From: Oscillospiraceae bacterium | GTDB taxonomy: Bacteria; Bacillota; Clostridia; Oscillospirales; Oscillospiraceae | Assembly (NCBI GenBank): GCA_015068395.1 | Contig: SVKP01000115.1 | Location: 1-64,000, forward strand | Direction: 5' to 3' | Length of the DNA stretch: 64,000 bases | Shown: positions 2,598 to 27,713 of the stretch, in pieces | Layout of the letters: every line of letters starts with the position of its first letter | Numbering within the stretch: position 1 is the first letter of the stretch | The notes under the pieces: model-generated | Database searches by the model: none | What the model was told of the DNA's origin: nothing | Seen by the model: the letters and a program-made list of their open reading frames with translations, nothing else | Program-made: the position numbers and the translations under genes

Positions 2598-4844
2598 ATG
2601 AAAAAACTCAACAGTCTGGTGCTGGCTTTGGCGCTTGCCTTCGGCCTTGCCGCTCCTGCCTATGCGGCGGAAACCCATATCGCGGCGGACCCTGCCGCTC
2701 CTGTTGCGCGCTGTGAGGTGATCCAAACGCTCTATGAGCGGGAGGGGCAGCCCATGGTAATCCAATCTATCGCGTTTTCGGATGCGGCGGGCACATGGTA
2801 CGCCAACGCCGCCGCTTGGGCGAAGGGCGCGGGCGTTGCGAACGGCGACGTGGACGGACGTTTCAACGGCGAGCGCCCCGTCACACGTGCAGAGCTTGCC
2901 GTCATCCTCTATCGCTATGCCTGTTACAAGGATATGGACGGCACAGCTGTGCAGAATACGAGTCTCCAACCCTACGACGACGTCTCTGCCACACCGGCAT
3001 GGGCGATGGAGGGATTCCAATTCGTATGCGCCAATGGCATGCTTGCGGACAAGAGAGCAGACGGCCGCCTTTTGCTTGCCGCGGGTGACAGGGTCACACG
3101 CGCGGAGCTGGCGCAGGCGCTGGAGCGTCTGGACAGCATGTCAGACCCGCTTTCACTGTGGACGAACGACGCGGCGGCAAAAAATGAACTGCTTGCCTAT
3201 TTGAAGGTGGTCACGGACGAGAACAGCAAAGATTTTATTCCCGTGAAGGACCGCATCGCCGTTTTCGATCTGGACGGTACACTCTTCTGCGAGACTGATC
3301 CCAACTACTTCGATTATACGCTCCTCAAGTACCGCGTACTGGAGGACCCCAACTACAGGGACAAGGCGTCCGACTTTGAAAAAGAGGTCGCAAACAAGAT
3401 CAAGGAGCAGAACGAGACGGGCAAGTCCTTCTCCGGCCTGGAGGTCGACCACGGCAAGGCGGTTGCCTCCGCGTTCGCGGGTATGACCGTTGCGGAGTTC
3501 AACGCTTATATTCAGGAATTCAAGAAGCAGTCCATGCCGAGCTATGACGGTATGCTGCGCGGCGAGGGCTGGTACAAGCCGATGCTGCAAGTGGTGGATC
3601 TCTTAAAGGCAAATGACTTTACAGTATATGTCGTCAGCGGCACCGACCGACTGATTGTCCGCGGTATTGCGTGCAACTCACCGCTCGGTATTCCCAACCG
3701 GCAGATCATCGGCTCCGACGAGACCATTGTATCCAGTAATCAGGGAGATACGGACGGGCTGAACTACGTATTTGCCGAGGGCGACGAGTTGATCCTCGGC
3801 GGCGAGTTCCTAATCAAGAACCTCAAAATGAACAAGGTCTCCGTCATCATGCAGGAGATCGGCCAGCAGCCGGTGCTTTCGTTTGGCAACAGCACAGGCG
3901 ATTCCAGCATGGCGGAGTATGTGACCAGCGGTAATCCCTATCAGAGCCTTGCGTTCATGCTTTGCTGCGACGATACTGTGCGCGAGAACGGCAATGAGAC
4001 GAAGGCGCAGAAGATGTTCGATCTCTGCGAGGAGTTCGGCTGGGTGCCGGTCTCCATGAAGAACGACTGGACGACCATCTATGGTGACGGCGTGACCTAT
4101 CTGGGCAGCACCGTTTCGGAGATCAAGGCAAGCGGCGTCCTGCGCGTCGGTGCGACGGGGGACTACCGCCCCATGTCCTTCCGCGACCCGGAGACAGGAA
4201 TCTACTGGGGCTTCGATGCAGAGCTCGCCGAAGACCTGGCGGAAGCGCTGGGCGTGAAACTTGAATATGTGCCGACCACATGGCCGACGCTGATGGCGGA
4301 TACGCTTGCCGGAAAGTTTGACCTCGCGATCTGCGGCATCACTGTGACCGACGCCCGCAGAGAACAGGCGCTTATGTCAGACGGATATCTCGGCAACGGG
4401 AAAACCGTCCTTTGCCGTGCGGAGGACGCGGGAAAGTACACCAGTCTGGAGGCAATCAACCGCCCGGAGGTTACGGTGATGGAGAACCCAGGCGGCCTGA
4501 ACGAGAAATTTGCCAGAGAAAGCCTGCCAAACGCTGTGCTGGTCATTCACGACGTCAACGAGGAGATCCCCGGACTCGTGGCGTCCGGCGAAGCAGACGT
4601 GATGATTACCGAGATCCTCGAGGCTGGCTGGTATGTCGGACAGGACAGCCGTCTTGCGGCGCCGCTGATTCACGAACCCTTTACGCAGGGACAGTTGGGC
4701 GTCCTGATGCCGAAGGGAAGCGAGGCGCTTGCGAATTACGTCAATGCATTTCTGGCAAAGGAGAAGGCGTCGGGCAGAATCGACGAGCTGGCGGATGAGT
4801 ACATTTACCGGTTCATTGACGCCAGCGCGGACGCGGCGGCATAA
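2598..4844 (+). CDS. Secreted fusion: SLH-like repeats + HAD phosphatase domain + periplasmic-type solute-binding domain
   Basis: Signal peptide MKKLNSLVLALALAFGLAAPAYA; SLH-like segment; IAVFDLDGTLF HAD motif; C-terminal GVLRVGATGDYRPMSFRDPETGIYWGFDAELAEDLAEALGV (SBP_bac_3). Start chosen over the ORF-track start because of RBS and signal peptide. Confidence 0.85.
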   Translation: MKKLNSLVLALALAFGLAAPAYAAETHIAADPAAPVARCEVIQTLYEREGQPMVIQSIAFSDAAGTWYANAAAWAKGAGVANGDVDGRFNGERPVTRAELAVILYRYACYKDMDGTAVQNTSLQPYDDVSATPAWAMEGFQFVCANGMLADKRADGRLLLAAGDRVTRAELAQALERLDSMSDPLSLWTNDAAAKNELLAYLKVVTDENSKDFIPVKDRIAVFDLDGTLFCETDPNYFDYTLLKYRVLEDPNYRDKASDFEKEVANKIKEQNETGKSFSGLEVDHGKAVASAFAGMTVAEFNAYIQEFKKQSMPSYDGMLRGEGWYKPMLQVVDLLKANDFTVYVVSGTDRLIVRGIACNSPLGIPNRQIIGSDETIVSSNQGDTDGLNYVFAEGDELILGGEFLIKNLKMNKVSVIMQEIGQQPVLSFGNSTGDSSMAEYVTSGNPYQSLAFMLCCDDTVRENGNETKAQKMFDLCEEFGWVPVSMKNDWTTIYGDGVTYLGSTVSEIKASGVLRVGATGDYRPMSFRDPETGIYWGFDAELAEDLAEALGVKLEYVPTTWPTLMADTLAGKFDLAICGITVTDARREQALMSDGYLGNGKTVLCRAEDAGKYTSLEAINRPEVTVMENPGGLNEKFARESLPNAVLVIHDVNEEIPGLVASGEADVMITEILEAGWYVGQDSRLAAPLIHEPFTQGQLGVLMPKGSEALANYVNAFLAKEKASGRIDELADEYIYRFIDASADAAA

Positions 4845-4908: not shown

Positions 4909-6456
4909 ATGGATAAGAACGAAAAACTGCTGCAACGGGTCAGGGCAAAGAAATGGCTGCTTCCCAGCGGCTTTGCCATCCTGTGCACGATGTCGGCGGC
5001 AAGCATCGCTCTTTGCTTTCTCAGCGGGCTTTCACGGCTGGAGCCGGACTGGATATTTAATATCGCGGCTGACGTCGTGGGCATTGCAATCTGTGCCGTG
5101 CTCTTTTACGGCTGCATGAACGGCGACAAGGAAACGCAGGAGACCACATATCTGTTCGTGGCATTGCTTTCGTCCAACGCATCGGCGCTGTTTCTCGATG
5201 AATGCGCCTGGCTGGTGCAGGGCGTACCCTCGCTGCGCGTGTGGAATCTGTTGGTGAATGTATTGTTCTATCTCGTGGGCGTGAACATGGTCTACCAGTT
5301 CTGGCGCTATGCCCGTGCGGCTCTGGACATGAATGATAAGCTGATGCGCTGGGGCGCATACGCCGTCCAGATCCTGCTGGTCCCCGCTATGCTTGCGTGT
5401 TTGGCAAATCTGTTTGTCCCGCTCTATTTCTATGTGGACGAGGCCGGCGTTTACCAGCGCGCAGCGGCGTATCCCCTCAGCTACACATATTTTGTGCTAT
5501 CTATCTGCATCCTGTTCGGCGGATTGCTGCGCTCCAATGTGTCGCGGAGGCAAAAGACGGTCGTGCTCTCCTTTGTTGCGATCCCGCTTCTCAACACGGC
5601 TCTGACGTGGAACACCTTCGGCATCTCAACACAGTATGTAGCGGCGCTGGTGTCCATCGTGATGATCTACAGCCTTTTGTACTCCGAACGCAGCAAAACA
5701 CTTGCCGCGAAGGATGCGGAGCTGAATATGGCAACCGGCATCCAGGCAAATATGCTTCCTCGCATTTTCCCGCCGTTCCCGGAGCGCAAGGAGTTCGACC
5801 TCTACGCTTCCATGGACCCCGCGAAGGAGGTTGGAGGCGACTTCTACGATTTCTTCCTGACTGACGACGACCATCTCGCCATGGTAATAGCGGACGTGAG
5901 CGACAAGGGCGTGCCGGCGGCGCTCTTTATGGTCATCGCCAAAACGCTCATCAAGAACCGCGCGCAGATGGGCGGTACGCCGGCAGAGATACTGGGGGAC
6001 GTCAATGCTAAGCTGTGCGAGGGCAACGAGTCAAAGATGTTTGTGACGGCTTGGCTGGGGATTCTGGAAATCTCCTCTGGCAGGCTTACGGCGACGAACG
6101 CGGGGCATGAATACCCGCTGATTAAGCATGCGGGCGGAGCCTTTGAATTGTTTAAGGACAAGCATGGCTTTGTTCTCGGCGGCATGGATGGTATGAAATA
6201 CAAGGACTACGAGCTTGCGCTTGAGCCCGGCGCAAAGATTTTCCTATATACGGACGGCGTCCCGGAGGCATCGGACGAAACGGAAAACATGTTTGGCGTG
6301 GAGCAATTGCTTGCGGTTCTGAACAAAGAGCCAGACGCTTCGCCGCAACAGATATTGCAGAATGTCCGCTGCGCCGTGGATGAATTTGTGAAGGACGCAA
6401 AACAGTTTGACGATCTGACCATGCTGAGCATGGAATACCGGGGAACAAAGGAATAG
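4909..6456 (+). CDS. Multi-TM N-terminus + SpoIIE/RsbU-type PP2C phosphatase
   Basis: Hydrophobic N-half; C-half MDPAKEVGGDFYDFF, DVSDKGVPAALFM, NAGHEYP, LYTDGVPEA, QFDDLTML. Confidence 0.9.
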   Translation: MDKNEKLLQRVRAKKWLLPSGFAILCTMSAASIALCFLSGLSRLEPDWIFNIAADVVGIAICAVLFYGCMNGDKETQETTYLFVALLSSNASALFLDECAWLVQGVPSLRVWNLLVNVLFYLVGVNMVYQFWRYARAALDMNDKLMRWGAYAVQILLVPAMLACLANLFVPLYFYVDEAGVYQRAAAYPLSYTYFVLSICILFGGLLRSNVSRRQKTVVLSFVAIPLLNTALTWNTFGISTQYVAALVSIVMIYSLLYSERSKTLAAKDAELNMATGIQANMLPRIFPPFPERKEFDLYASMDPAKEVGGDFYDFFLTDDDHLAMVIADVSDKGVPAALFMVIAKTLIKNRAQMGGTPAEILGDVNAKLCEGNESKMFVTAWLGILEISSGRLTATNAGHEYPLIKHAGGAFELFKDKHGFVLGGMDGMKYKDYELALEPGAKIFLYTDGVPEASDETENMFGVEQLLAVLNKEPDASPQQILQNVRCAVDEFVKDAKQFDDLTMLSMEYRGTKE

Positions 6457-6505: not shown

Positions 6506-6976
6506 ATGACAGAAATGACCATTGAGGCGAAAACGGAGAATCTTGATTAGGTGCTTTCATTCGTAAACAGCCAACTGGAAAAGTACGATTGTTCGCCGCG
6601 CGCCCAGATGCAGCTGGAAATCGCGGTGGAGGAGCTGTTTGTCAACATTGCGCACTATGCCTACAACCCGGAGGTCGGCAGTGCCACCGTGCGCGTGGAG
6701 ATGCAGCAGGACCCGATTTCGGCGATCATCACCCTGATCGACCGCGGCGTTCCATACGATCCTCTGGCGAAGGAGGACCCGGACGTTACCCTTTCCGCGG
6801 ATGAGCGCGAAATCGGCGGTCTGGGCATTTACATGGTTAAGAAGAGCATGGACGCTGTTACCTATGAGTATAAAGACGGGCAGAACATTCTGACACTGAA
6901 AAAAAAACTTATGATGCTCTTCATTGAGGCTTGCAGCCGAAGGAAAGGCGACCGGGCGAAAAGGAGCGAAAGATGA
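6506..6976 (+). pseudogene. RsbW-type anti-sigma/HATPase kinase with in-frame TAG at codon 15
   Basis: RBS AGGGGGAGG then ATG MTEMTIEAKTENLD-TAG-VLSFVNSQLEKYDCSPRAQMQLEIAVEELFVNIAHYAYNPE; same frame continues to 6976. Confidence 0.75.
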
Positions 6977-9144
6977 AGATTGTCAGCGGGATAAAGCTTG
7001 GTGGATTGCAACAGAAGATCTTCAACCTGATGCTGTTCTTTATCTTTGTGCTGATCGGCGCATACGTCGCTGTGAGCGTTTTTCAGCAGAAGAATCTGAC
7101 CAGAACAGTTCAGGAGGCGAGCGCAGAGCAGCAGGCGTCCATCGCTGCCGTTTCGGAAGAAACCATGGAGGCGGTTTTAGAAGCGACCATGGGAAAGAGC
7201 AACGCTCTGCAGGCGTACATTGCGGACGATCTGTTCAACGACATACAGACGGATGTGCTGACATTGCAGTCGATTGTCACACAGCTTTTTGAGCATGCGG
7301 AGCTCTTTTCCACACGTTCGGTCGATCCGCCGTCCGCCAAAAATAAGGGAATTCCCTCCGCCCAGCTGATCCATGAGTCCGGGGTGCATCCGGAGGACTC
7401 GCAGATGCTGGGACTTGTGGGCAATTTGAGCGATATCATGCTGGCGATATATGAAAACAACAGCAAGATGAGCAGTTGCTTCATTGGAACGGCAGACGGG
7501 AACATGATCCTCGTGAATGACAGAGCGGATATTTTTATCGCGGCGGATGGAACGCCGCTACCTCTGGATATTCGCAACCGTCCCTGGTTTGTTCAGGCCG
7601 CTAACGCTGGGGAATTGATCTTTACCGGCGTTGAGATCGACGCCTATACGGAAAACCCGATGCTCGAGTGTGCCGCGCCGGTTTACCATGATGGAAAGCT
7701 TGTCGCCGTGGTGGCGGCAGATATCTATCTGACTGCTATCAGCGATTACGTTGAAAGCACGGCGACGGATGGCGGGTATCTTTGCGTAATCAATGAAAAA
7801 GGGCAAGTCCTTTTTTCGCCGGAGCAGAGCCTGTGCTTTAAGGCGGAGCGTTCCGCGGATGCGCCCGACCTCAGGCAAAGTGAAAACGCCGAGCTTGCTC
7901 GCTTTGTGACCGAATCCCTGTCGAGTACGACCGGGCTTGAATCCATCACGGTTGACGGGAAGGAATACTACATGACCGGGACGCCCATGTCGAGCGTGGG
8001 ATGGACAGTCATTTCTGTGGTCGACAAGGAGATCACGCACAGGCCGACGGAAGCGATGCTTGCGCGCTATGATGAGATCAATGAGGATGCCCATAATTCT
8101 TACGCAAAAGGCGCGGAAGCATCCGCAAAGACTCTTGTTATCCTGACGATCATCATTCTTCTGTTTGCGATCTTCGGCGCATTTACTGTGGCTGGTCGTA
8201 TTGTAAAGCCGCTGGAACGCATGACAGCGCGCATCAATTCACTGCGCGACGGAGACACGGCCTTTGAAATGGAGGACGCCTACCGTACAGGCGATGAGAT
8301 CGAGGTTCTGGCAGAGTCCTTTGCAACCCTCAGCAAGCGGACGCGGGACTATATTACACAAATCACACAGATTACCGCGGAGAAGGAGCGCATCGGCACT
8401 GAGCTTGCGCTGGCGACGCGGATACAGGCGGATATGCTGCCAAACATCTATCCCGCCTTCCCGGACCGCCCGGAGTTTGACGTCTATGCCAGCATGGACC
8501 CCGCAAAAGAGGTTGGCGGAGACTTCTATGATTTCTTTCTGATCGACCGGGATCATCTTGGTATCGTCATGGCGGACGTTTCGGGCAAGGGCGTGCCGGC
8601 GGCACTGTTTATGATGATCTCAAAGATCCTGGTGCAAAACTATGCCATGACCGGACACAGCCCTGCGGAGGTGCTGCAGGCTGTCAACGATCAGATCTGC
8701 GCCAATAACCGCGAGGAAATGTTCGTCACAGTGTGGTTTGGCATATTGGATATCAAAACAGGCAGGATCACCGCGGCGAACGCCGGACATGAATACCCTG
8801 CCCTGTTGTACTCGGGCGGACAATTTGAGCTGCTCAAGGACAAGCACGGGTTTGTCATTGGCGGTATGGAGGGAATGAAATACAAGGAATACGAGTTTAC
8901 GCTCACCCCCGGCTCAAAGCTGTTTCTATATACGGATGGCGTGCCGGAGGCCACCAACGCGGAAAAAGAGCTTTTCGGTACGGAGCGCATGCTCGCGGCA
9001 TTGAACGAAAACAAGGCGGCGGAACCGCAGGATGTGTTGAAGCAGGTTCGCCGCGCTGTGGATGGATTTGTGAACGAGGCGGAGCAGTTTGACGATCTGA
9101 CCATGCTTTGCCTGGAATACCGGGGAGAATCGGAAGGCAACTGA
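6973..9144 (+). CDS. Cache-type sensor + HAMP + SpoIIE-type PP2C phosphatase
   Basis: TM, extracytoplasmic sensor (RNRPWFVQAANAGELIFTGVEID), TM, HAMP (GRIVKPLERMTARINSL), PP2C motifs. Confidence 0.9.
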   Translation: MKIVSGIKLGGLQQKIFNLMLFFIFVLIGAYVAVSVFQQKNLTRTVQEASAEQQASIAAVSEETMEAVLEATMGKSNALQAYIADDLFNDIQTDVLTLQSIVTQLFEHAELFSTRSVDPPSAKNKGIPSAQLIHESGVHPEDSQMLGLVGNLSDIMLAIYENNSKMSSCFIGTADGNMILVNDRADIFIAADGTPLPLDIRNRPWFVQAANAGELIFTGVEIDAYTENPMLECAAPVYHDGKLVAVVAADIYLTAISDYVESTATDGGYLCVINEKGQVLFSPEQSLCFKAERSADAPDLRQSENAELARFVTESLSSTTGLESITVDGKEYYMTGTPMSSVGWTVISVVDKEITHRPTEAMLARYDEINEDAHNSYAKGAEASAKTLVILTIIILLFAIFGAFTVAGRIVKPLERMTARINSLRDGDTAFEMEDAYRTGDEIEVLAESFATLSKRTRDYITQITQITAEKERIGTELALATRIQADMLPNIYPAFPDRPEFDVYASMDPAKEVGGDFYDFFLIDRDHLGIVMADVSGKGVPAALFMMISKILVQNYAMTGHSPAEVLQAVNDQICANNREEMFVTVWFGILDIKTGRITAANAGHEYPALLYSGGQFELLKDKHGFVIGGMEGMKYKEYEFTLTPGSKLFLYTDGVPEATNAEKELFGTERMLAALNENKAAEPQDVLKQVRRAVDGFVNEAEQFDDLTMLCLEYRGESEGN

Positions 9145-9228
9145 AAGAACGGGACTGCGGCATGATGCGGCAGGGAACGGGCACGGCGCGTGATGGACTG
9201 TTGAGAAATATGTAGAGGAGGAGATTTG

Positions 9229-10452
9229 ATGGCGGATAGGAATACGCTGCGGACAAAGGCAATTTGGCAGATTACGGAAAGGCTGCGCGATGCGGATGAT
9301 CTGGTCGAAGCCATGGCACACAGTCTTGAGATCATAAAGGACGTGCTGGACTGCGAGGCAGGGTCTGTATGGCTTTTAAGCAAATCGACAAACCGCGTCT
9401 GCGCGGTGGTCAATGTCGGCACGGACGACATTACCGGGTTTAGCGTGGAAAGCGGACAGGGTATTGTCGGTTCGGTTGCAAAATCCGGCGAATCCATCAT
9501 CGTGGAGGATACCTCAACGGACACGCGCTTTTCCAAAAGTGTGGACGAGGAGACCGGCTTTGTGACCAAAAGCATCATCTGCGTGCCGCTGAAAAATGAA
9601 TATGAGACCATCGGCTGCGTGGAGATCATCAACAAGCGTTCCGGCGCCTCCTACACTGCGGAGGACCTTGCCCTTTGCGAGCAAATGGCCGCGCTCGCCG
9701 CCATCGCCATCGAGGAAAAGGGCTTCTCCTTTGAGCCGGAGCAGGAAAAACGCGTAATCATCTCCCTGCGCAACGTGGTCAAGGAGTTCCCGTCGGGAGA
9801 CAGCGTGCTGCGCGTGCTCAAGGGCATCAATCTGGACGTCTACGAGAACGAATTTGTCGTGGTTCTGGGCGAGTCCGGCTGTGGAAAGTCCACCATGATG
9901 AATATCATCGGCGGCATGGACTTTTTGACCTCCGGGACGCTCACCGTTGAGGGCAAAGATTTTTCCCATCCCTCGGATGCGGAGCTGACCGATTTCCGCC
10001 GCAATTACGTCGGTTTCGTTTTTCAGGCATATAATCTGATGCCAAACCTGACGGCGCGCGAGAATGTGCAGTTCATCGCGGAGATCAGCCCCGATCCCGG
10101 CGACGTGGACGCGGCGATCGCCAAGGTGGGATTGACGGAGCGCGCGAATAACTATCCCGCGCAGATGTCCGGCGGCCAGCAGCAGCGCGTGTCCATTGCG
10201 CGGGCGCTGGCAAAAAACCCAAAGGTCATCTTTGCGGACGAGCCGACTGCCGCGCTCGACTTCCAAACGAGCGTGGAGGTGCTGCGTGTGTTTGAAAACA
10301 TCGTGAATTCGAACGGCACCACGGTTATGATGATTACGCACAACGAGGAAATTGCCAAAATGGCGAACCGCGTGGTCAAGCTCAAGGGCGGCACAGTCGC
10401 AAGTATTCGCAGCAATCTGCATCCGCTCCACGCAGACGACCTCTCATGGTGA
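9229..10452 (+). CDS. GAF domain fused to MacB/LolD-type ABC transporter ATPase
   Basis: GAF-like N-half; Walker A GESGCGKSTMMNIIGG, signature MSGGQQQRVSIARAL, Walker B VIFADEP. Confidence 0.92.
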   Translation: MADRNTLRTKAIWQITERLRDADDLVEAMAHSLEIIKDVLDCEAGSVWLLSKSTNRVCAVVNVGTDDITGFSVESGQGIVGSVAKSGESIIVEDTSTDTRFSKSVDEETGFVTKSIICVPLKNEYETIGCVEIINKRSGASYTAEDLALCEQMAALAAIAIEEKGFSFEPEQEKRVIISLRNVVKEFPSGDSVLRVLKGINLDVYENEFVVVLGESGCGKSTMMNIIGGMDFLTSGTLTVEGKDFSHPSDAELTDFRRNYVGFVFQAYNLMPNLTARENVQFIAEISPDPGDVDAAIAKVGLTERANNYPAQMSGGQQQRVSIARALAKNPKVIFADEPTAALDFQTSVEVLRVFENIVNSNGTTVMMITHNEEIAKMANRVVKLKGGTVASIRSNLHPLHADDLSW

Positions 10453-13400
10453 TTGCCATGAAGAAAACACAGATCAAGGATGCGCTGCGCAACATACGCA
10501 GAGAGCGGGTGTCCTATTTCTCAATTCTGCTGATTGCCTTTATGGCGGTGACATGCTACGTTGGCGTAGTCGCCGCCGAGACCGCGCTGCTGCGCTCCGG
10601 CAATCGGTTCTATGACGAGACGTCGTTTCACGATCTGGAAATTGCCTCAACGCTGCTTCTGGAGGAGGGGGACGTCGAAGCCATCCGGGCGGTGAGCGGC
10701 GTTCTCGACGCGGAGGGCGTCTACCTCACCACTGCAAAGGCTTTTGACGGAACGTCCCGCGCGCAGGTTTCGGTGCGTTCGCTGACGGAGCGGATCGACC
10801 TTCCGATCCTGACTGAGGGACATTTGCCCGCCGCTGCAAACGAGTGCGCGGTGGAGGAGCGTTTTCTCGCGGAAACGGATTTCTCCGTGGGCGACACGGT
10901 CCGCCTCACGAGCGGGGACGGCGGGGTGCCGGACTATCTGGCGAATGAGGCATATGTCATCACGGGCAGCTTTCTCCACTCTGAGCACATTTGCGATACC
11001 GTCACGGGTAACGCGCTGATTCTCGTTACCCCGGAGGCATTTGACCTTGACAGGCTGGATGGCTGCTACATGAAGGCGGAGGTGCTGCTTGACAAAGCGG
11101 CATACCCGGACCGCTACGGCGACGAGTATAAAGAGGCTCTGGAATCCATGCGGCTCACATTGGAGTCGCTTGCAGCCGAGCGCGCCGCCATGCGCGACGA
11201 GTCGGTCCATACGCGCTATCAGAGTGAGATCGACGAGAATCAGGCGAAGCTGGACGATGCGGCGGCGCGGCTTGCCGAAGCGCGCACGCAGCTGGATGAA
11301 GGCGTCGCACAGCTGGAGGAGAACCGGCAGAAGCTCGCCGACGCGGAACGCGAGCTTGCAGAAAGCCGGGCGGAGCTGGATCAGGGCAGCGAAGAGCTCT
11401 CTGGAGCGAAAACGCAGCTGGACCGCATCAAGCGAACGCTGAGCGATGCGGCGAAGGAGCTTGCCGATGGAAAGAGCATTCTGGACGATACGGCGGCACA
11501 GCTCGCTGACGCGGCGGCGCAGCTCGCCGATGGCAAGGCGCTGCTGAACGAGAAAGCGGAGGAGCTTGCACAGGGACGGCTCAAGCTGGACAACGCAAAG
11601 CAGGAGCTTGCAGAGGCTAAGGCCAAACTGGAGGACGCCGCCGCGGAGATCGCCGAGAATCGGCAAAAGCTTGTGGACGCGGAGCAGAAGCTTGCCGACG
11701 GATGGAAGGAACTGGAGGAGAACAAAAAACTGCTCGATGCCGCGGCAGAAGAGCTAAAAAGCGCGGAGACGCAGCTGAAAAATGCAGCCACACAAATCTC
11801 CAGAGGCGAGGCGCAATTGAGCAGAGGACGCAGAGAACTGCGCAACGGGGAGGCTCAGATTGCCAACGGAGAAGCACAGCTCGCCGACGGGCACAGGCAA
11901 TTGTCTGAATCCTATGTAGAGATCGAGACGGCGAAGCAAGAGGCGCGAGGTCAAATACAGGATGCGATGATCGATTCGCTCAAGAAATCGGGCTTTGAGG
12001 ATGAGGCGGCGCAAACCATTGTCGGATCCATTGGATGGGTGGAACCAAATTATTCCCCAGACCTGGATGATTCCAGTCTGCGCGCAACAGACTTTCAGGT
12101 AACGGACACTGTCAGCGTGGATTTTGCAAAGGATTCGGAACAGGTAGCCAAAGCGCTGGTCAGTCCGCTTGAGCAGGTGTTGACGGAGGAGGCGTATCAA
12201 ACTGCCGCGTCGACTGTGGAGCAGATTTTGGACTACGTCGGCTACAGCACGGTTTCTGAGCAGCTGCAACAGTGGGACGATGGTCACGAGCAATATCTGA
12301 CCGGCAAGGCGCAGCTTGCGGCTGCGAAAGAAGAACTCGAAGAGGGGCAGGAGAAATACAGACAGGGTGAAGAGCAGCTTTTGAGCGCAAGTGAGGAGTA
12401 TGAAGCCGGGCTCGCACAGTACAATGACGGAAAAACACAGTATGAAAGCGGCCTTGCACAGTACAACGAGGGCCTCCGGCGTTACGAGGAGGGGCTTGCA
12501 CAGTATAACGAGGGCAAGGCGAAGCTGGAAGCCGGCGAGGCGGAGTATGAGGCTGGCGTTGCACAGTATGAGACGGGGCTAGCCGAGTACCTGAGCGGCG
12601 AAGAGCAGTACGCCGACGGCCTTGCACAGTACAACGACGGTGCGGCGGAGTATGAAGCACGGCTTGCCGAATACAACGAGGCAAAGGCAAAGTACGACGA
12701 AGGCGTCGAGACATATGACGCCTCACTTGCCCAATACAACGACGCGCTTGCCCGGTATCAAAGGGGCGTCGCGGACTACCAGGCGGGCATGCGCCGCTAT
12801 GAGGACGGCGAGGCCCAGTATACGGACGGGCTTGCGCAGTATGACGACGGCATGCGGCAGCTGATCGAGGGCAGCGAAACGCTGGCAGAGAAGGAGCGGG
12901 AATACGCCGACGGCATGGCGCAATACAACGACGGCGCGGCACAGCTGGACGAGGCGCGCGAGACGCTTGACGCCCTCTCACCGGCACGCTGGGTTGTGCT
13001 GACGCCAGACGCAAACGGCGGCTACTTGCAGCTGCGTACAAGCTGCAGCTCCGTCAAGATCATCGGCGCACGCTTTACGGTGCTGTTTTTGGTCGTCGGC
13101 GCGCTGGTGATCTACGCCACGGTTGCCAAGATCGTGGACGAGCAGCATAAGCTGGTCGGTGCGACGAAGGCGTTTGGCTTTTTCAACCGCGAGATCCTTG
13201 CCAAATATCTCATATACGGCGTCAGCGCGACCGCCGTCGGCATCCTGCTCGGCGCGGCGGCAAGCATCCCGCTGCAATTGTTTGTCGCATCCAGCTTTGG
13301 CAAGATATTCGTCTTCGGAAGCCCACGCGCGGCAGTGCGTCAGGATCTGATGGTGCTGGTACTGGTGCTGGGCGTCCTGCTCTCCCTTGCGGCGGTTTGG

Positions 13401-14606
13401 TTTGCCTGTACGACGCTGATGCGCTCCACGGCGATCCGGCTGATGCAGGACAGCACACCCGTTGGCGGGAAAAAATCAGGGCATGGCAGCAAGAGCCTGC
13501 TCACACTCTATCAGAGGCTGATCCTGCGCAACATGCGAAGCGACCTCAAGCGTATTACCATCACAGTCGTGAGCATTATGGGTTGCTGCGCGCTGCTGGT
13601 GATTGGGTTTACGCTGCGTGCGTGCGTCTTTGAAACGCCTTCGCGGCAGTATGGACAGATCGTACAGTACGACTATGATCTGAGCTATGAGCCGGGCGCC
13701 GAGGCGGAGATGGAGGCGGTCCTGGAAAGGTATGGTGCGACGGAAACGCCGGCCTACCGCCTGTATACAAGCCTGCGGATCGGGGCTGCCACGGATTTCG
13801 GGGAGCTGATCGTCATCGACGGAGACCGGCTTTCCGAGCTGTACCGGCTCAGCGACAAGGATACAAAGGACACTCTGCACGTTGGATCGGATGGCATATA
13901 CATTTTCTCCGGCATCGCGCAGTCGCACGGGCTTTCCGTGGGCGACACGGTCGTGCTGATGAATGAAAGCGGCACGGAGGCGGAGGCGCGGATCGCGGGC
14001 GTTTTCCGCAATTACTTAGGGCAAATGATCTTCCTGACGCCTGCGTATTACGCGGAGATCTTTGGCGAGGAACCGATAAGCAACAGCATGCTGGGCCATC
14101 TCAACGGCGCAGACTTCGACGCGCTCAGCGGGGAACTGTCGCATTTGGAGAGCTTTCGGTCGCTTGAGCGCTCGGATTCCTTGCGCGCGTTGGTCGAGAG
14201 CTTTACGAAGATCATCAACGCTGTCGTCTGCATTTTGATTGTTGCGGCAGGGGCGATGGCGGCCGTCATTCTGACAAATCTGACGAATATTTACATCCGG
14301 CAGAAAACACGGGAACTGGCGGTCATGCGCGTGAACGGTTTTACCGTGCGCGAGGTCATCCGCTATATGCTGGGCGAGACCTATGTTACAACCGCGCTGG
14401 GCATCCTGCTCGGCTGTGTGGTCGGTTCGGCGCTGGGCATCTGGATCGTCGGCTCGTTCCAGTCTCCGGTCTTCCGCTTTGTGGCGGAGCCGAACGCGAC
14501 GTCCTGCCTGATTTCCGCTGCAATTACCTTGCTTTTTGTCGCCATAATCAACATCCTTGCACTGCGCAAGGTGAAGGATCTCAAGCTGACGGATATTTCA
14601 GGCTAA
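10446..14606 (+). CDS. Giant FtsX/MacB-type ABC permease with long coiled-coil/repeat insertion
   Basis: 1386 aa; N-terminal TM, two heptad-like repeat blocks, two FtsX-like TM blocks (RFTVLFLVVGALVIYATV; IINAVVCILIVAAGAMAAVILTNLTNIYIRQKTRELAVMRVNG). Confidence 0.9.
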   Translation: MVIAMKKTQIKDALRNIRRERVSYFSILLIAFMAVTCYVGVVAAETALLRSGNRFYDETSFHDLEIASTLLLEEGDVEAIRAVSGVLDAEGVYLTTAKAFDGTSRAQVSVRSLTERIDLPILTEGHLPAAANECAVEERFLAETDFSVGDTVRLTSGDGGVPDYLANEAYVITGSFLHSEHICDTVTGNALILVTPEAFDLDRLDGCYMKAEVLLDKAAYPDRYGDEYKEALESMRLTLESLAAERAAMRDESVHTRYQSEIDENQAKLDDAAARLAEARTQLDEGVAQLEENRQKLADAERELAESRAELDQGSEELSGAKTQLDRIKRTLSDAAKELADGKSILDDTAAQLADAAAQLADGKALLNEKAEELAQGRLKLDNAKQELAEAKAKLEDAAAEIAENRQKLVDAEQKLADGWKELEENKKLLDAAAEELKSAETQLKNAATQISRGEAQLSRGRRELRNGEAQIANGEAQLADGHRQLSESYVEIETAKQEARGQIQDAMIDSLKKSGFEDEAAQTIVGSIGWVEPNYSPDLDDSSLRATDFQVTDTVSVDFAKDSEQVAKALVSPLEQVLTEEAYQTAASTVEQILDYVGYSTVSEQLQQWDDGHEQYLTGKAQLAAAKEELEEGQEKYRQGEEQLLSASEEYEAGLAQYNDGKTQYESGLAQYNEGLRRYEEGLAQYNEGKAKLEAGEAEYEAGVAQYETGLAEYLSGEEQYADGLAQYNDGAAEYEARLAEYNEAKAKYDEGVETYDASLAQYNDALARYQRGVADYQAGMRRYEDGEAQYTDGLAQYDDGMRQLIEGSETLAEKEREYADGMAQYNDGAAQLDEARETLDALSPARWVVLTPDANGGYLQLRTSCSSVKIIGARFTVLFLVVGALVIYATVAKIVDEQHKLVGATKAFGFFNREILAKYLIYGVSATAVGILLGAAASIPLQLFVASSFGKIFVFGSPRAAVRQDLMVLVLVLGVLLSLAAVWFACTTLMRSTAIRLMQDSTPVGGKKSGHGSKSLLTLYQRLILRNMRSDLKRITITVVSIMGCCALLVIGFTLRACVFETPSRQYGQIVQYDYDLSYEPGAEAEMEAVLERYGATETPAYRLYTSLRIGAATDFGELIVIDGDRLSELYRLSDKDTKDTLHVGSDGIYIFSGIAQSHGLSVGDTVVLMNESGTEAEARIAGVFRNYLGQMIFLTPAYYAEIFGEEPISNSMLGHLNGADFDALSGELSHLESFRSLERSDSLRALVESFTKIINAVVCILIVAAGAMAAVILTNLTNIYIRQKTRELAVMRVNGFTVREVIRYMLGETYVTTALGILLGCVVGSALGIWIVGSFQSPVFRFVAEPNATSCLISAAITLLFVAIINILALRKVKDLKLTDISG
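11230..11915 (+). repeat. Protein-level heptad-like repeat block 1 (AQLADGKxxLxEAxxEL)
   Basis: Many near-repeats of A/K-x-L-x-(D/E)-(A/G). Confidence 0.8.
12280..12960 (+). repeat. Protein-level heptad-like repeat block 2, Tyr-rich (AQYNEGLxxYEEG)
   Basis: Repeated LAQYNDG / YEEGLAQYNEG units. Confidence 0.85.
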
Positions 14607-18542: not shown

Positions 18543-20201
18543 ATGAAAAAAAGAAAGAGCATAAAAACGCAAGTAGCGATTTCTGCAATACTGTTTATGG
18601 GCGTCCTCACAGTCGCCATAGCGGTTATCGGATACAAGCTCTATCATGACAGCGTCATGGAAAGCTACGCCACTTATGCGGATACGGTGTTGGAATATGC
18701 GTATCGAGCCGCTCAGGAGTATTCTTTCGGCGATATGATCGCAGCCCGTGATATGCCTGTTGGATATGAGGAGCTGAGATCAGAGCTCAACCGGGTCAAG
18801 GACTGCTCGGATATCGAATACCTCTATGCCATTTATTTTGAGGATATTGACGATATCCACAGCCTGCACTATGCCATCAATGCGAAGACGCAGGCGGAAT
18901 TGTCTGCCGGAGCTTCTCCCTCGGCGATCTACACTTATATGGGGAAGCCCTGCGAGGAAGGCGGGTTTGCAGACGATACCCTTCTTACGCTTCAACAGGC
19001 GGTCAAGGACGGAAAGCGCGAGAACGGAACGCTGGAAGGCTACTCGGATGAGTATGGGCATATGCTGAACGGGTACCGCGTGGTTTTCGACAGCAGTGAT
19101 CATGCGGTCGGCCTGCTCTGCGTTGAGATCGACATCAACAGGATCAACGCGGGCGTGTTTCGTTATGTGCGGACAGTCATACTGACCGCAGCCCTGTTTA
19201 CCGCGGTGATTATTCTCATCTACATGTTTAATACCCAGCGGTATTTGATCCGGCCGATTGAAAGGATCGTTGCAGGCAGCGATGCGTTTGTCAAAAAAAT
19301 GCAGAGCAATGCAGCCCCGGAGGAGCTTGTGTTTGAGGATGTGCGCGTCGATTCCGGGGACGAGCTGCAATTACTTGCCGAGAATGTAAAGAGTCTGGCG
19401 GACGGCGTGGCGTCCTATATGACAAATCTTCAGGCCGCAACGTCCGAGAGGGAACGCATCGGCACGGAGCTTTCGCTTGCGACGCGAATTCAGGCGAGTA
19501 TGCTGCCAAACACCTTTCCCGCGTTCCCGGACCGCCCGGAATTCGATATTTACGCCTACATGGACCCGGCGAAGGAGGTCGGCGGTGACTTCTATGATTT
19601 CTTTCTTGTGGATGACGACCATCTCTGTCTGGTCATAGCGGACGTGTCCGGCAAGGGCGTACCGGCGGCGCTCTTTATGATGGCGTCCAAGATCATTCTC
19701 GCGAACAACGCCAAGATGGGGAAGTCGCCTGCGCAGATCCTGACGGACGCCAATTCCGCGATCTGCTCAAAGAATAATGAGCAGATGTTTGTTACGGCAT
19801 GGCTTGGCATATTGGAGCTTTCCACCGGCAGACTGACTGCCGCCAATGCAGGCCATGAGTACCCCGCGCTGAAGCATAAGGACGGCAGCTTCGAGCTGCT
19901 CAGGGACAGGCACAGCTTTGTCATCGGCGGCATGGACGATACGAAGTACACAGAGTACACACTTACGCTGGAACCCGGCGCCAAGCTCTTCGTATATACC
20001 GATGGCGTGCCGGAGGCGACCAGCGCCGAAAAGGAGCTTTTCGGTACGGAACGGATGCTCACGGCGCTGAATGAGGACGCCGGTGCGTCACCGGAGCAGC
20101 TTCTCAAAACCGTCAGGAGAGCGGTGGACGGTTTTGTGAAGGACGCGGAGCAGTTTGACGACCTGACCATGCTGTGCGTGGAATACAAAGGGAAAAGCTG
20201 A
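18543..20201 (+). CDS. Membrane sensor + HAMP-like + SpoIIE-type PP2C phosphatase
   Basis: Two TMs flanking sensor; MDPAKEVGGDFYDFFLVDDDHLCLVIADVSGKGVPAALFM. Confidence 0.9.
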   Translation: MKKRKSIKTQVAISAILFMGVLTVAIAVIGYKLYHDSVMESYATYADTVLEYAYRAAQEYSFGDMIAARDMPVGYEELRSELNRVKDCSDIEYLYAIYFEDIDDIHSLHYAINAKTQAELSAGASPSAIYTYMGKPCEEGGFADDTLLTLQQAVKDGKRENGTLEGYSDEYGHMLNGYRVVFDSSDHAVGLLCVEIDINRINAGVFRYVRTVILTAALFTAVIILIYMFNTQRYLIRPIERIVAGSDAFVKKMQSNAAPEELVFEDVRVDSGDELQLLAENVKSLADGVASYMTNLQAATSERERIGTELSLATRIQASMLPNTFPAFPDRPEFDIYAYMDPAKEVGGDFYDFFLVDDDHLCLVIADVSGKGVPAALFMMASKIILANNAKMGKSPAQILTDANSAICSKNNEQMFVTAWLGILELSTGRLTAANAGHEYPALKHKDGSFELLRDRHSFVIGGMDDTKYTEYTLTLEPGAKLFVYTDGVPEATSAEKELFGTERMLTALNEDAGASPEQLLKTVRRAVDGFVKDAEQFDDLTMLCVEYKGKS

Positions 20202-23355: not shown

Positions 23356-23399
23356 TACATCAATTCAATTGTTTGGTTCCCTTACAACAAGGAGGCGTG

Positions 23400-25493
23400 A
23401 TGATGAAGAAATATGGCTGGTTATGCTTGCTGATCCTGTCTCTGCTGTGCGCGACGTCGGTCCTTGCCGGATATGCTGCGGGGCACGACGCTTCGGGAAA
23501 AGCGGAGAACGAGAAGATGGATGGGCAGACGGCGGAAACTCTTGCGTATTGGAACCCGTCTTCTCCGGCGATGCAGTCCTTGATCTCTTATGTGAACGAC
23601 GTAACCGATCCGAAGTCGGACAGTTACATCTCTGCAAAAGACCGCATTGCTGTGTTTGATTTGGACGGTACGCTCTATGGCGAGCGCTATCCCACCTATG
23701 TCGACCAGTGCCTTATGCTGCATCGGTATTTGCACGACCCCACCTTCACGCCTGCAAAGGAGGACGCGGAGTATTGCAGGAGGCTCGAAGCCGCTGTTCG
23801 GAACGGCACGGAAGCGCCGTCCTCTCCGCGCTCTTCGGGTCAGATGATCGCGGAGAGCTTTCAGGGCTTTACGGTGGAAGAATACAGGGCTTATATCCGC
23901 GAGTTTCTGAAGACGGATATTCCGGGCTTTACGGGTATGACCTATGGCGACCGTTTCTTTCAGCCGATGGTTTCCGTGGTGCGCTATCTGTATGAGCACG
24001 ATTTTCAGGTCTATATCGTCAGCGGCGCGGAACGCTCCCTGCTTCGGGAACTGATTACCGGCACGCTGGATGAATATATCCCGTCAGACCGCGTTATCGG
24101 AACCACGTTTTCCCTGACCGCGACGAACCAGGGGGACGTCGAGGGGAGAAAGTATATCTATGGGCAGGACGACGCTGTTCTGATGGAAGGGAATATGACC
24201 TTCAAGAACCTGAGCATGAACAAGGTTGTCAGCATTGTGGATGAGATCGGAAAGCCGCCGGTGCTCGCCTTCGGCAACAGCTCGGGGGATTTCGCGATGG
24301 CTGAGTACACCGTCCAGCATGGCGGCAGGGCATACATGCTCCTCTGCGACGACACGGAGCGAGACTTTGGCGACGTGGAAGAGGCGGAGGCGTTCCGTCA
24401 GGATTGCGAGGCGCGGGGCTTTGTGACCGTATCCATGCGGGACGAGTTTGCCACGATCTATGCAGAGGGCGTCAAAAAGGGCGCATATGACAAGGTCGCT
24501 CCCGTGGAGGAGACGATTGAGGGCTGGGCGCCGGACTCCCCGGCGATGCAGTCGATCGTGGAGTTTGTCATGGACTCGGTGGATGAGAGCTCAGACGGCT
24601 TCATTCCCAAATCCGACAGGATCGCCGTGTTCGACATGGACGGCACGCTGTACGGTGAGCGCTTCCCGACCTATTTCAACGACTGGCTGTTCATCCAGCG
24701 GGCGCTGTATGACGACAGCTACGAGACGCCTAAGTATTTGGAGGAGTTTGCCCGCGCGTGGGAGGACAAGGTGCTCAGGGGCATTCCCATCGAGAATTTC
24801 GACGCGAAGGAGCGCGAGCTGGGGCCGAAGCTCTATCAAGGTCTGACGCAGGATGCCTACGCGGAGGTCGTGCGCCGCTTCAAGGCGCTGCCTGTCTGGG
24901 GCTTTGAGGGGATGACCTACGGCGAGGCGTATTTTCAGCCGATGGTCTCTCTGGTGAAGTACCTCTATGAGCACGATTACAGCATCTACATTGTCAGCGC
25001 CACTTACCGGGACGCGGTGCGTGTGATGACCGAGGGCGTGTTGGATCAATACATCCCCTATGACCATGTCATCGGCACGGACCTGCTGTATGTGTCGTCC
25101 GGGGATGAAGAGTCAGACAGCATGTTCTATGAGCTGAAACCGCAGGACAAGCTGGTCATAGCTGGCGAGCTGTTCATCAAGAACCAGAAGACCAACAAGG
25201 CGACCGTCATCCAGCAGGAGATTGGAAAGCTGCCCGTGCTGGCATTCGGCAATTCCACCGGCGATTTCTCCATGGCGACGTACACGCTTCAAAACGGGAA
25301 GTATGGCGGCAGGGCATATATGCTGCTGTGTGACGACACCGAACGTGATTACGGCGACCCGGCGATTGCGGCGGCCTTCAAGAACAAGTGCGACGCCAAT
25401 GACTTTTACACCATATCCATGAAGGACGAGTTCGAAACGTTATACCCGGACGGTGCAAATATGGCAAGGCCCGGACAGGACGCGGCGGCGTGA
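23400..25493 (+). CDS. Secreted tandem HAD-phosphatase protein
   Basis: Signal peptide; two HAD modules (IAVFDLDGTLYGERYPTY; IAVFDMDGTLYGERFPTY) paralogous to the HAD domain at 2598-4844. Confidence 0.85.
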   Translation: MMKKYGWLCLLILSLLCATSVLAGYAAGHDASGKAENEKMDGQTAETLAYWNPSSPAMQSLISYVNDVTDPKSDSYISAKDRIAVFDLDGTLYGERYPTYVDQCLMLHRYLHDPTFTPAKEDAEYCRRLEAAVRNGTEAPSSPRSSGQMIAESFQGFTVEEYRAYIREFLKTDIPGFTGMTYGDRFFQPMVSVVRYLYEHDFQVYIVSGAERSLLRELITGTLDEYIPSDRVIGTTFSLTATNQGDVEGRKYIYGQDDAVLMEGNMTFKNLSMNKVVSIVDEIGKPPVLAFGNSSGDFAMAEYTVQHGGRAYMLLCDDTERDFGDVEEAEAFRQDCEARGFVTVSMRDEFATIYAEGVKKGAYDKVAPVEETIEGWAPDSPAMQSIVEFVMDSVDESSDGFIPKSDRIAVFDMDGTLYGERFPTYFNDWLFIQRALYDDSYETPKYLEEFARAWEDKVLRGIPIENFDAKERELGPKLYQGLTQDAYAEVVRRFKALPVWGFEGMTYGEAYFQPMVSLVKYLYEHDYSIYIVSATYRDAVRVMTEGVLDQYIPYDHVIGTDLLYVSSGDEESDSMFYELKPQDKLVIAGELFIKNQKTNKATVIQQEIGKLPVLAFGNSTGDFSMATYTLQNGKYGGRAYMLLCDDTERDYGDPAIAAAFKNKCDANDFYTISMKDEFETLYPDGANMARPGQDAAA

Positions 25494-25506
25494 GGAGGAA
25501 TTCATC

Positions 25507-25803
25507 ATGACGATTTCATGGATCAAAAACGGGAGCAAGCTGACCGTCGCGCTGGAGGGGCGTCTTGATACGACTACCGCGCCGCAGCTCGAGGAGGGGC
25601 TTCGCGATTCCCTGGGCGGTGTGACAGAACTGGTGTTTGATCTCGCCAAACTCGAGTATGTTTCTTCCGCAGGCCTGCGCGTTTTCCTTTCAGCACAAAA
25701 GACCATGAATAAGCAGGGAAAAATGGTGATTCGCAATGCGAACAGCGCCATTATGGATGTTTTTGAGGTAACGGGCTTTTCGGATATTCTCAGGATCGAG
25801 TAA
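25507..25803 (+). CDS. STAS-domain anti-anti-sigma factor (SpoIIAA/RsbV-like)
   Basis: VALEGRLDTTTAPQLEE..LVFDLAKLEYVSSAGLRVFLSAQK. Confidence 0.93.
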   Translation: MTISWIKNGSKLTVALEGRLDTTTAPQLEEGLRDSLGGVTELVFDLAKLEYVSSAGLRVFLSAQKTMNKQGKMVIRNANSAIMDVFEVTGFSDILRIE

Positions 25804-27056: not shown

Positions 27057-27713
27057 ATGGGCAGCAACAAAAACGATGTGACCATGGACCCTTCCGGGTT
27101 CGTGTTGCTGGCGGATTATGTGCCGCACATCGTGCAGGAGATCCGATATTATTCCACATATAATTTTATCGGTGAGCGCATCGACGGCTATGAGGAGCCT
27201 TGCGCTCTGCTTACAAAGGAGGCGGCGCGCGCGCTGAAGGCTGTCAGCAGCGAGATGTTCGTGCAGGGCTATCGTCTCAAGGTTTTCGACGCCTACCGGC
27301 CCGCGTGCGCGGTGAAGCAGTTTGTGCTGTGGGGGATCGAAGACCAGGACATCCGAATGAAGCCGTATTTCTACCCGGAGCTGGAGAAACAGGAGCTTTT
27401 TGCAAAGGGCTATATTGCCAAACAGTCCAGCCACAGCCGGGGCAGTGCGGTGGATTTGACGCTTCTGGATATGAAAACGGGGAAGGAGCTCGACATGGGA
27501 AGCCCCTTCGACCTGTTCAGCGAGGCGTCTCACCCCGACTACAAGGGCGTGACGGACGAGCAGTATGAGAACAGAATGCTTTTGCAGCATGTTATGGTTC
27601 GCAACGGATTTGCGCCAATCGACTGCGAATGGTGGCATTTCGCGCTGAAGGACGAGCCGTACCCGGACACTTATTTTGCATTTCCCGTGTCGTCTGAATA
27701 TTTAAGGAGGTAG
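27057..27713 (+). CDS. VanX/DdpX-like D-Ala-D-Ala dipeptidase
   Basis: VFDAYRPACAV, SSHSRGSAVDLTL, CEWWHFAL. Confidence 0.9.
   Translation: MGSNKNDVTMDPSGFVLLADYVPHIVQEIRYYSTYNFIGERIDGYEEPCALLTKEAARALKAVSSEMFVQGYRLKVFDAYRPACAVKQFVLWGIEDQDIRMKPYFYPELEKQELFAKGYIAKQSSHSRGSAVDLTLLDMKTGKELDMGSPFDLFSEASHPDYKGVTDEQYENRMLLQHVMVRNGFAPIDCEWWHFALKDEPYPDTYFAFPVSSEYLRR

Follow-up and report, generated by a model that had tools for sequence, protein, structure and literature searches.

A 748-residue protein encoded in the genome of an Oscillospiraceae bacterium joins a cell-wall-binding region, a phosphatase domain, and a domain with a solute-binding protein (SBP) fold, and the question it raises is whether the last of these is an enzyme or a binder, which decides how interesting the fusion protein is. 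The evolution of cyclohexadienyl dehydratase (CDT) from an SBP is a well-known case of an enzyme originating from a noncatalytic fold, studied largely via reconstructed ancestors. The window, the whole 64,000-nucleotide stretch analyzed here, belongs to a 3.1-Mb draft genome of 225 contigs (88.5% complete, 5.46% contamination), the nearest named relatives of which are Oscillospiraceae MAGs, frequently of rumen and gut origin. The fusion gene lies on the forward strand at 2598–4844, where the ATG at 2598 is preceded by a ribosome-binding-like stretch, AGGGGGTG, and the stop falls at 4844; the open reading frame could also open at 2544. A tRNA-Pro (CGG) gene just 5′ of it, at 2162–2237, is a possible integration point. 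Pfam profile search gives the domain order as signal peptide, SLH region, HAD domain, and PF00497 domain, with Pfam and PDB scores far above chance. A preliminary description had proposed a single secreted polypeptide with these three parts, and the open reading frame, Pfam, phmmer, and Foldseek agree on it; in the profile searches PF00395, PF12710, and PF00497 were all matched, the first two over their stated cut-offs.

The N-terminal third of the protein is that of a surface protein. Residues 1–23 (2598–2666, forward strand) form a Sec-type signal peptide, MKKLNSLVLALALAFGLAAPAYA, with cleavage after AYA, judged by eye on the translation, and the SLH region follows at residues 45–182 (2730–3143, forward strand). 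A single repeat exceeds the PF00395 threshold (residues 60–101, 2775–2900; 43.7–43.9 bits against a cut-off of 20.8), flanked, as judged by eye, by a partial copy before it and a degenerate copy after it. The signal peptide and SLH repeats that define SLH-anchored surface proteins are thus both present; as a single repeat scores above threshold, attachment to the wall may be weak. The source genome contains 69 SLH matches, and a search for a CsaB-type enzyme, which would make a pyruvylated cell-wall polymer, found two homologs of PF04230 (polysaccharide pyruvyl transferase), both in unusually long frames.

The HAD-IB phosphatase domain spans residues 183–500 (3144–4097, forward strand) and carries D224, D226, and T228 (DLDGT), S347, K413, and G430-NSTGD435. 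PF12710 matches residues 221–373 with 29.6 bits (cut-off 27); the NCBIfam HAD-IB model TIGR01488 scores 17.5 bits and does not reach its cut-off of 45, which marks this HAD group as divergent. In phmmer searches of the PDB, 4ovy, an uncharacterized HAD from Planctopirus, was matched across the whole domain (1.4e-30), and a profile built from 44 HAD sequences had the Pseudomonas aeruginosa phosphorylcholine phosphatase 4as2 as its sole characterized match (0.00095). Foldseek searches with an AlphaFold model of the domain (pLDDT 87) returned 4ovy (2e-20) and 4as2 (4e-9), then, among characterized proteins, phosphoserine phosphatases and 5′-nucleotidases. The domain is unusually conserved, most Clostridia loci lying at ∼75–88%, one Treponema MAG at 72%, and one Spirochaetales MAG at ∼62–67%. 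All 44 homologs have D224, D226, T228, K413, and D435, and residue 347 of motif II is S or T; because, in addition, the counterparts of the motif residues in PchP are catalytically important by mutagenesis (PMC3170909), the domain is very probably an active phosphatase. The idea of a wall-anchored phosphatase is therefore upheld by the signal peptide and SLH region, by the catalytic residues, and by relatives in which another surface module, Cu_amine_oxidN1, is swapped in for SLH.

The C-terminal domain (residues 503–738; 4104–4811, forward strand) matches PF00497 with 103.6 bits over residues 515–736. PF00497 names the fold; judged by sequence comparison, the specific relatives of the domain are the cyclohexadienyl dehydratases (CDT/PheC). 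In the PDB, phmmer ranked 5jos (AncCDT-3, 1.9e-71), 6wup (2e-59), and 3kbr (PaCDT, 4e-47) far above typical amino-acid SBPs such as the ABC binding protein 3k4u (3e-26), identity being 52% to AncCDT-3 and 40% to PaCDT, and no NCBIfam SBP equivalog was matched at cut-off. In a maximum-likelihood tree, which is rough, with several long branches and bootstrap values short of fully settled, 12 gut sequences form one clade (99/99) that is joined by Cetobacterium (98/94) and lies inside the PaCDT group (90/82), apart from SBPs. Structure prediction from 12 close sequences was too poor for use (pLDDT 65). No ABC amino-acid permease was found among the immediate neighbors scanned at several CDT loci; the ABC genes near the fusion in the window are an unusual GAF-domain-bearing ABC ATPase (9226–10452, same strand as the fusion gene) and a large permease-like protein. 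The latter (∼1386 aa, 10446–14606) adjoins the GAF-ABC ATPase gene and contains a very long, repetitive, coiled-coil-like insert. The preliminary description had taken the domain for an amino-acid-type SBP acting as a ligand sensor; the fold holds, and the PDB ranking, the tree, and the active-site residues do not support the identity.

Active-site data for this comparison came from PMC10520331 and PMC7683729, the nine PaCDT residues being taken from PMC10520331 and mapped via alignment. Eight of the nine are kept in the window domain, where Y523, W562, K602, N630, N635, N654, T671, and E675 correspond to PaCDT Y22, W60, K100, N128, N133, N152, T169, and E173. L634 stands in place of T132 and L700 in place of K198, and D170E (E672) and F156P are further replacements, all four at positions that probably help determine the substrate; with eight residues in the alignment to PaCDT rather than the full nine, the domain is filed as CDT-lineage and not as CDT. 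The general acid Glu173, whose change to Gln abolishes activity in the study that lists the nine residues (PMC10520331), is present in all 12 gut clade members, as are K100, N128, N133, N152, and T169; at several of these positions ordinary SBPs have another residue. Ten other members share the score of eight with the window protein, and L089 alone has all nine, with Thr at position 132 where the other 11 have Leu; the clade is marked by D170E, F156P, and Leu or Ile at 198. Among comparators, the arginine-binding ancestor AncCDT-1 scores 5/9, and two SBPs of the source genome score 1/9 and 3/9. E173 also occurs in Ruegeria, Vibrio, and Leisingera proteins that do not have the rest of the signature. 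T132 and K198 correspond to JbCDTCM Thr159 and Lys225, which contact the sulfonate of the product-like MES (PMC10520331), and since their replacement by Leu alters these contacts, the substrate choice of the gut domain has probably moved. AncCDT-3 has all the catalytic residues, yet its activity is weak, so the residues alone are no proof of an efficient enzyme. The Cetobacterium relative (L100:3935–4690; fish gut, plasmid), annotated only as substrate-binding, carries the D170E and F156P of the gut Clostridia clade and has Met at 198. Most CDT-clade proteins end in ...AA (PAA, EAA, or AAA) after differing tails (L086, 8113–9396; L045; L087–L091; the window protein, 4820–4841).

The CDT clade is rare: within the family 7 of 301 genomes carry it, and among the other 390, drawn from the class, one does in addition to the genome of the window; its members are 70–86% identical to the window domain. 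Resolvase and relaxase genes near two of its loci hint at horizontal spread. With gene calls at the comparison loci taken from a codon-usage caller, the domain appears as SLH-HAD-CDT in the window and in another genus (L087), as Cu_amine_oxidN1-HAD-CDT in another family (L099), as SLH-CDT (L086), fused to a DUF3089 hydrolase (L089), with a longer N-terminal extension (L048), and as a stand-alone exported protein (L045–L047, L088, L090, and L091). The HAD-CDT fusion thus occurs in three genera and two families. In congeners (L009/L092 and L010/L093), SLH-HAD proteins without CDT stop, with ...GVTKK or a like ending, at the point from which the fused form continues into CDT. The HAD tree places the window HAD as sister to the unfused L009 (98/93), and a single clade of the three fused HADs is disfavored (AU p=0.038), whereas the CDT tree makes the window and L087 sisters (93/94); from these trees, either several fusion events or repeated losses of CDT are probable. 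Either way the HAD-CDT pairing recurs, which argues for a functional tie, and co-occurrence across the 301 genomes points in the same direction: an HAD homolog is present in 4 of 7 CDT-bearing genomes versus 17 of 301 overall (hypergeometric 2e-4; 0.02 without the two fused genomes). Both halves are under purifying selection, with differences of 35–66% at codon position 3 versus 7–24% at positions 1 and 2. The architecture, which by the preliminary description's own criterion should not be common and well described, is rare in the genomes surveyed, and a search for papers on HAD with SLH and on domain fusions of CDT found none describing SLH-HAD-CDT in the literature covered, most subscription journals lying outside it.

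Downstream of the fusion gene lie genes of the partner-switch type, all on the forward strand. A multi-TM SpoIIE-type PP2C (4909–6456; PF07228, 162.7 bits) follows after a 65-bp gap, and then come an RsbW-like anti-sigma/switch kinase of the HATPase_c_2 family (6551–6976; PF13581, 75 bits) and a dCache-HAMP-SpoIIE PP2C (6976–9144, by profile search). Farther along are a secreted tandem HAD-HAD paralog of the same HAD family (23373–25493, forward strand; 39% and 34% identical) and a STAS anti-sigma-factor antagonist (25453–25803, forward strand; PF01740). The HAD-HAD gene, of which a longer homolog occurs in another genome (G304, L096), sits beside a response regulator, the STAS gene, and a third PP2C (18543–20201). 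When HAD-clade loci are taken only if 7 kb or longer (33 distinct ones, counted irrespective of kinship), a SpoIIE-type PP2C is near the HAD gene in 7, where ∼1, and at most ∼1.2, would be expected from the density in the source genome (7 PP2C genes in 3.1 Mb). Twelve of the loci, one in a Treponema among them, have at least one gene of the partner-switch type, whether PP2C, HATPase, or small STAS. In contrast, nine unfused CDT loci have no PP2C, HATPase, STAS, or M15 neighbors, so the link belongs to the HAD part. The earlier proposal of sensing upstream of the PP2C is accordingly supported in part, at the level of linkage and not of signaling by the CDT/SBP domain. In one Treponema MAG (L040:7917–8954, forward strand) the HAD protein is 72% identical, a PP2C gene lies 22 bp downstream of it, and a STAS gene is nearby, which suggests that the HAD/PP2C cassette was transferred across phyla.

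Taken together, the domains, the conserved catalytic residues, the placement in the CDT clade, and the recurrence of both fusion and gene neighborhood are best explained by a two-enzyme protein that is secreted and probably attached to the wall, in which a small-molecule phosphatase is coupled to a dehydratase of shifted specificity, a reading drawn from sequence to which we give a probability of about one-half. The SLH region would tether the protein to a cell-wall polymer, and the HAD-IB domain would hydrolyze a small organic phosphomonoester outside the cell through an aspartyl-phosphate mechanism with D224 as nucleophile. The C-terminal domain, descended from exported CDTs, most likely still closes on a small carboxylate and would eliminate water with E675 (Glu173) as general acid. 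Its specificity would have shifted, since T132L, K198L, and D170E alter the pocket at the end where the pyruvyl carboxylate is held; arogenate or another substrate of the amino-acid type is a candidate. The protein may be produced alongside, and perhaps under the control of, the PP2C/HATPase/STAS partner-switch system, and its role may be scavenging or regulatory. Against the two-enzyme reading, no biochemical chain connects the phosphatase product to the CDT substrate.

The main alternative, possible but in our view on the unlikely side, is that the C-terminal domain, though of CDT ancestry, has little or no catalytic activity and serves as a binding module, either holding a ligand for the phosphatase (cleave and bind) or sensing one. 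It would fit the PF00497 fold, the loss of K198 and T132, with Leu198 being also the state of the noncatalytic ancestor AncCDT-1, and the domain's repeated joining to surface proteins that are otherwise unrelated (SLH by itself, the DUF3089 hydrolase, and HAD in three loci), as expected of a carry-along binder. However, E173 and the five residues invariant with it in the clade weigh against such a module, and there is no obvious reason for a pure binder to retain the catalytic Glu. A role of the C-terminal domain in exported Phe biosynthesis, giving the cell phenylpyruvate or Phe by a second pathway, would suit the CDT lineage, whose member PaCDT is such an exported enzyme (PMC10520331). We hold it to be most improbable: of seven CDT-bearing genomes examined, six encode a canonical PDT domain and the remaining one, G130, is 85% complete, so the fusion is not needed for housekeeping Phe synthesis; moreover, CDT is absent from most relatives, and no chorismate mutase or aminotransferase was recognized among the scanned neighbors of the CDT genes. 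The cytoplasmic prephenate dehydratase of these genomes makes a nutritional or signaling role outside the cell likelier than Phe biosynthesis.

A further possibility extends the protein into a surface scavenging complex for cell-wall or dietary peptides, in which a VanX-like dipeptidase, the HAD domain, and the binding or dehydratase domain would release amino acids and phosphate from extracellular debris. The window has a VanX-like M15 D-Ala-D-Ala dipeptidase gene (27057–27713, forward strand; PF01427, 140 bits; PDB 1r44, 3.5e-48), a homolog of the gene that abuts HAD in relatives, and 7 of the 33 long-flank loci, as well as L011, have such a gene next to the HAD gene or close to it. Yet the commonest M15 form (∼219 aa, the window's included) has no signal peptide by eye and may be cytoplasmic, and the window M15 gene is 22 kb from the fusion, so we regard this complex as improbable. 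A lipoprotein (L020:805–2640, forward strand) fuses the M15 dipeptidase to the same HAD domain, a point in its favor, and the M15 gene is beside or overlaps the HAD gene in L009–L012, L037, L044, L087, and L094. The draft state and contamination of the genome, and the closest congeners (L009 and L010), whose SLH-HAD proteins stop right after the HAD domain, could also suggest that assembly or binning joined an SLH-HAD gene to an unrelated CDT gene. We reject such an artefact as next to impossible: other genera and a second family have the fusion as well, G130 showing the same domain order with an almost identical junction and G438 the same order behind another N terminus, and the reading frame is open throughout.

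The gut clade is a living test of the potential of the CDT lineage: a natural group ∼52% identical to AncCDT-3 in which the catalytic Glu is kept and the contacts to the substrate carboxylate are changed. An active domain would also extend exported CDT fusions, so far reported from a few proteobacterial species with CM-CDT, to Gram-positives, and would indicate an extracellular use of CDT chemistry other than Phe biosynthesis. We can advance only tentatively, as a doubtful extension, that gut Clostridia possess a new exported bifunctional enzyme class, in which a wall-anchored HAD phosphatase and an active CDT-lineage dehydratase with a new substrate (e.g., an arogenate-like amino acid) were assembled more than once and are run with a PP2C partner-switch cassette.

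Each part of the protein has relatives among known systems. PheC/PaCDT of P. aeruginosa (PDB 3KBR/5HPQ) and the AncCDT series share with the C-terminal domain the PBP-like fold, Tyr22, Trp60, Lys100, Asn128, Asn133, Asn152, Thr169, and Glu173, and placement in the CDT tree, whereas the gut domain differs in T132L, F156P, D170E, and K198L/I, in its fusion to HAD and SLH, and in its occurrence in Clostridia. For the HAD domain, 4ovy and PchP (4AS2), which is exported and is the nearest characterized member, have the same DxDGT, S/T, K, and terminal G-D motifs, but identity is ∼30% to 4ovy and 16% to PchP, and motif IV here is GNSxGDxxM rather than GDTPDSD. SLH-anchored surface enzymes of Bacillota likewise place a signal peptide and SLH before a catalytic domain; here there is one strong repeat, and a cargo of HAD and CDT was not found described. 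SpoIIE-type PP2C/RsbW/STAS partner-switch systems have the same adjacent PP2C, HATPase, and STAS genes, without the secreted HAD enzyme that is a recurrent neighbor here. The closest precedent in kind is the exported CM-CDT and CDT-CM fusions (PMC10520331), in which a rare exported CDT is joined to a second enzyme in hosts that also have a cytoplasmic PDT; Stocker et al. (2023) propose a signaling role for the CM-CDT fusions and argue for nutritional or signaling use over Phe biosynthesis (PMC10520331). Exported CDT fusions are thus already known, and what is new here is an exported, wall-anchored CDT-lineage fusion whose partner is an HAD phosphatase instead of a chorismate mutase, with Gram-positive gut hosts, a wall-anchoring module, and an altered CDT pocket.
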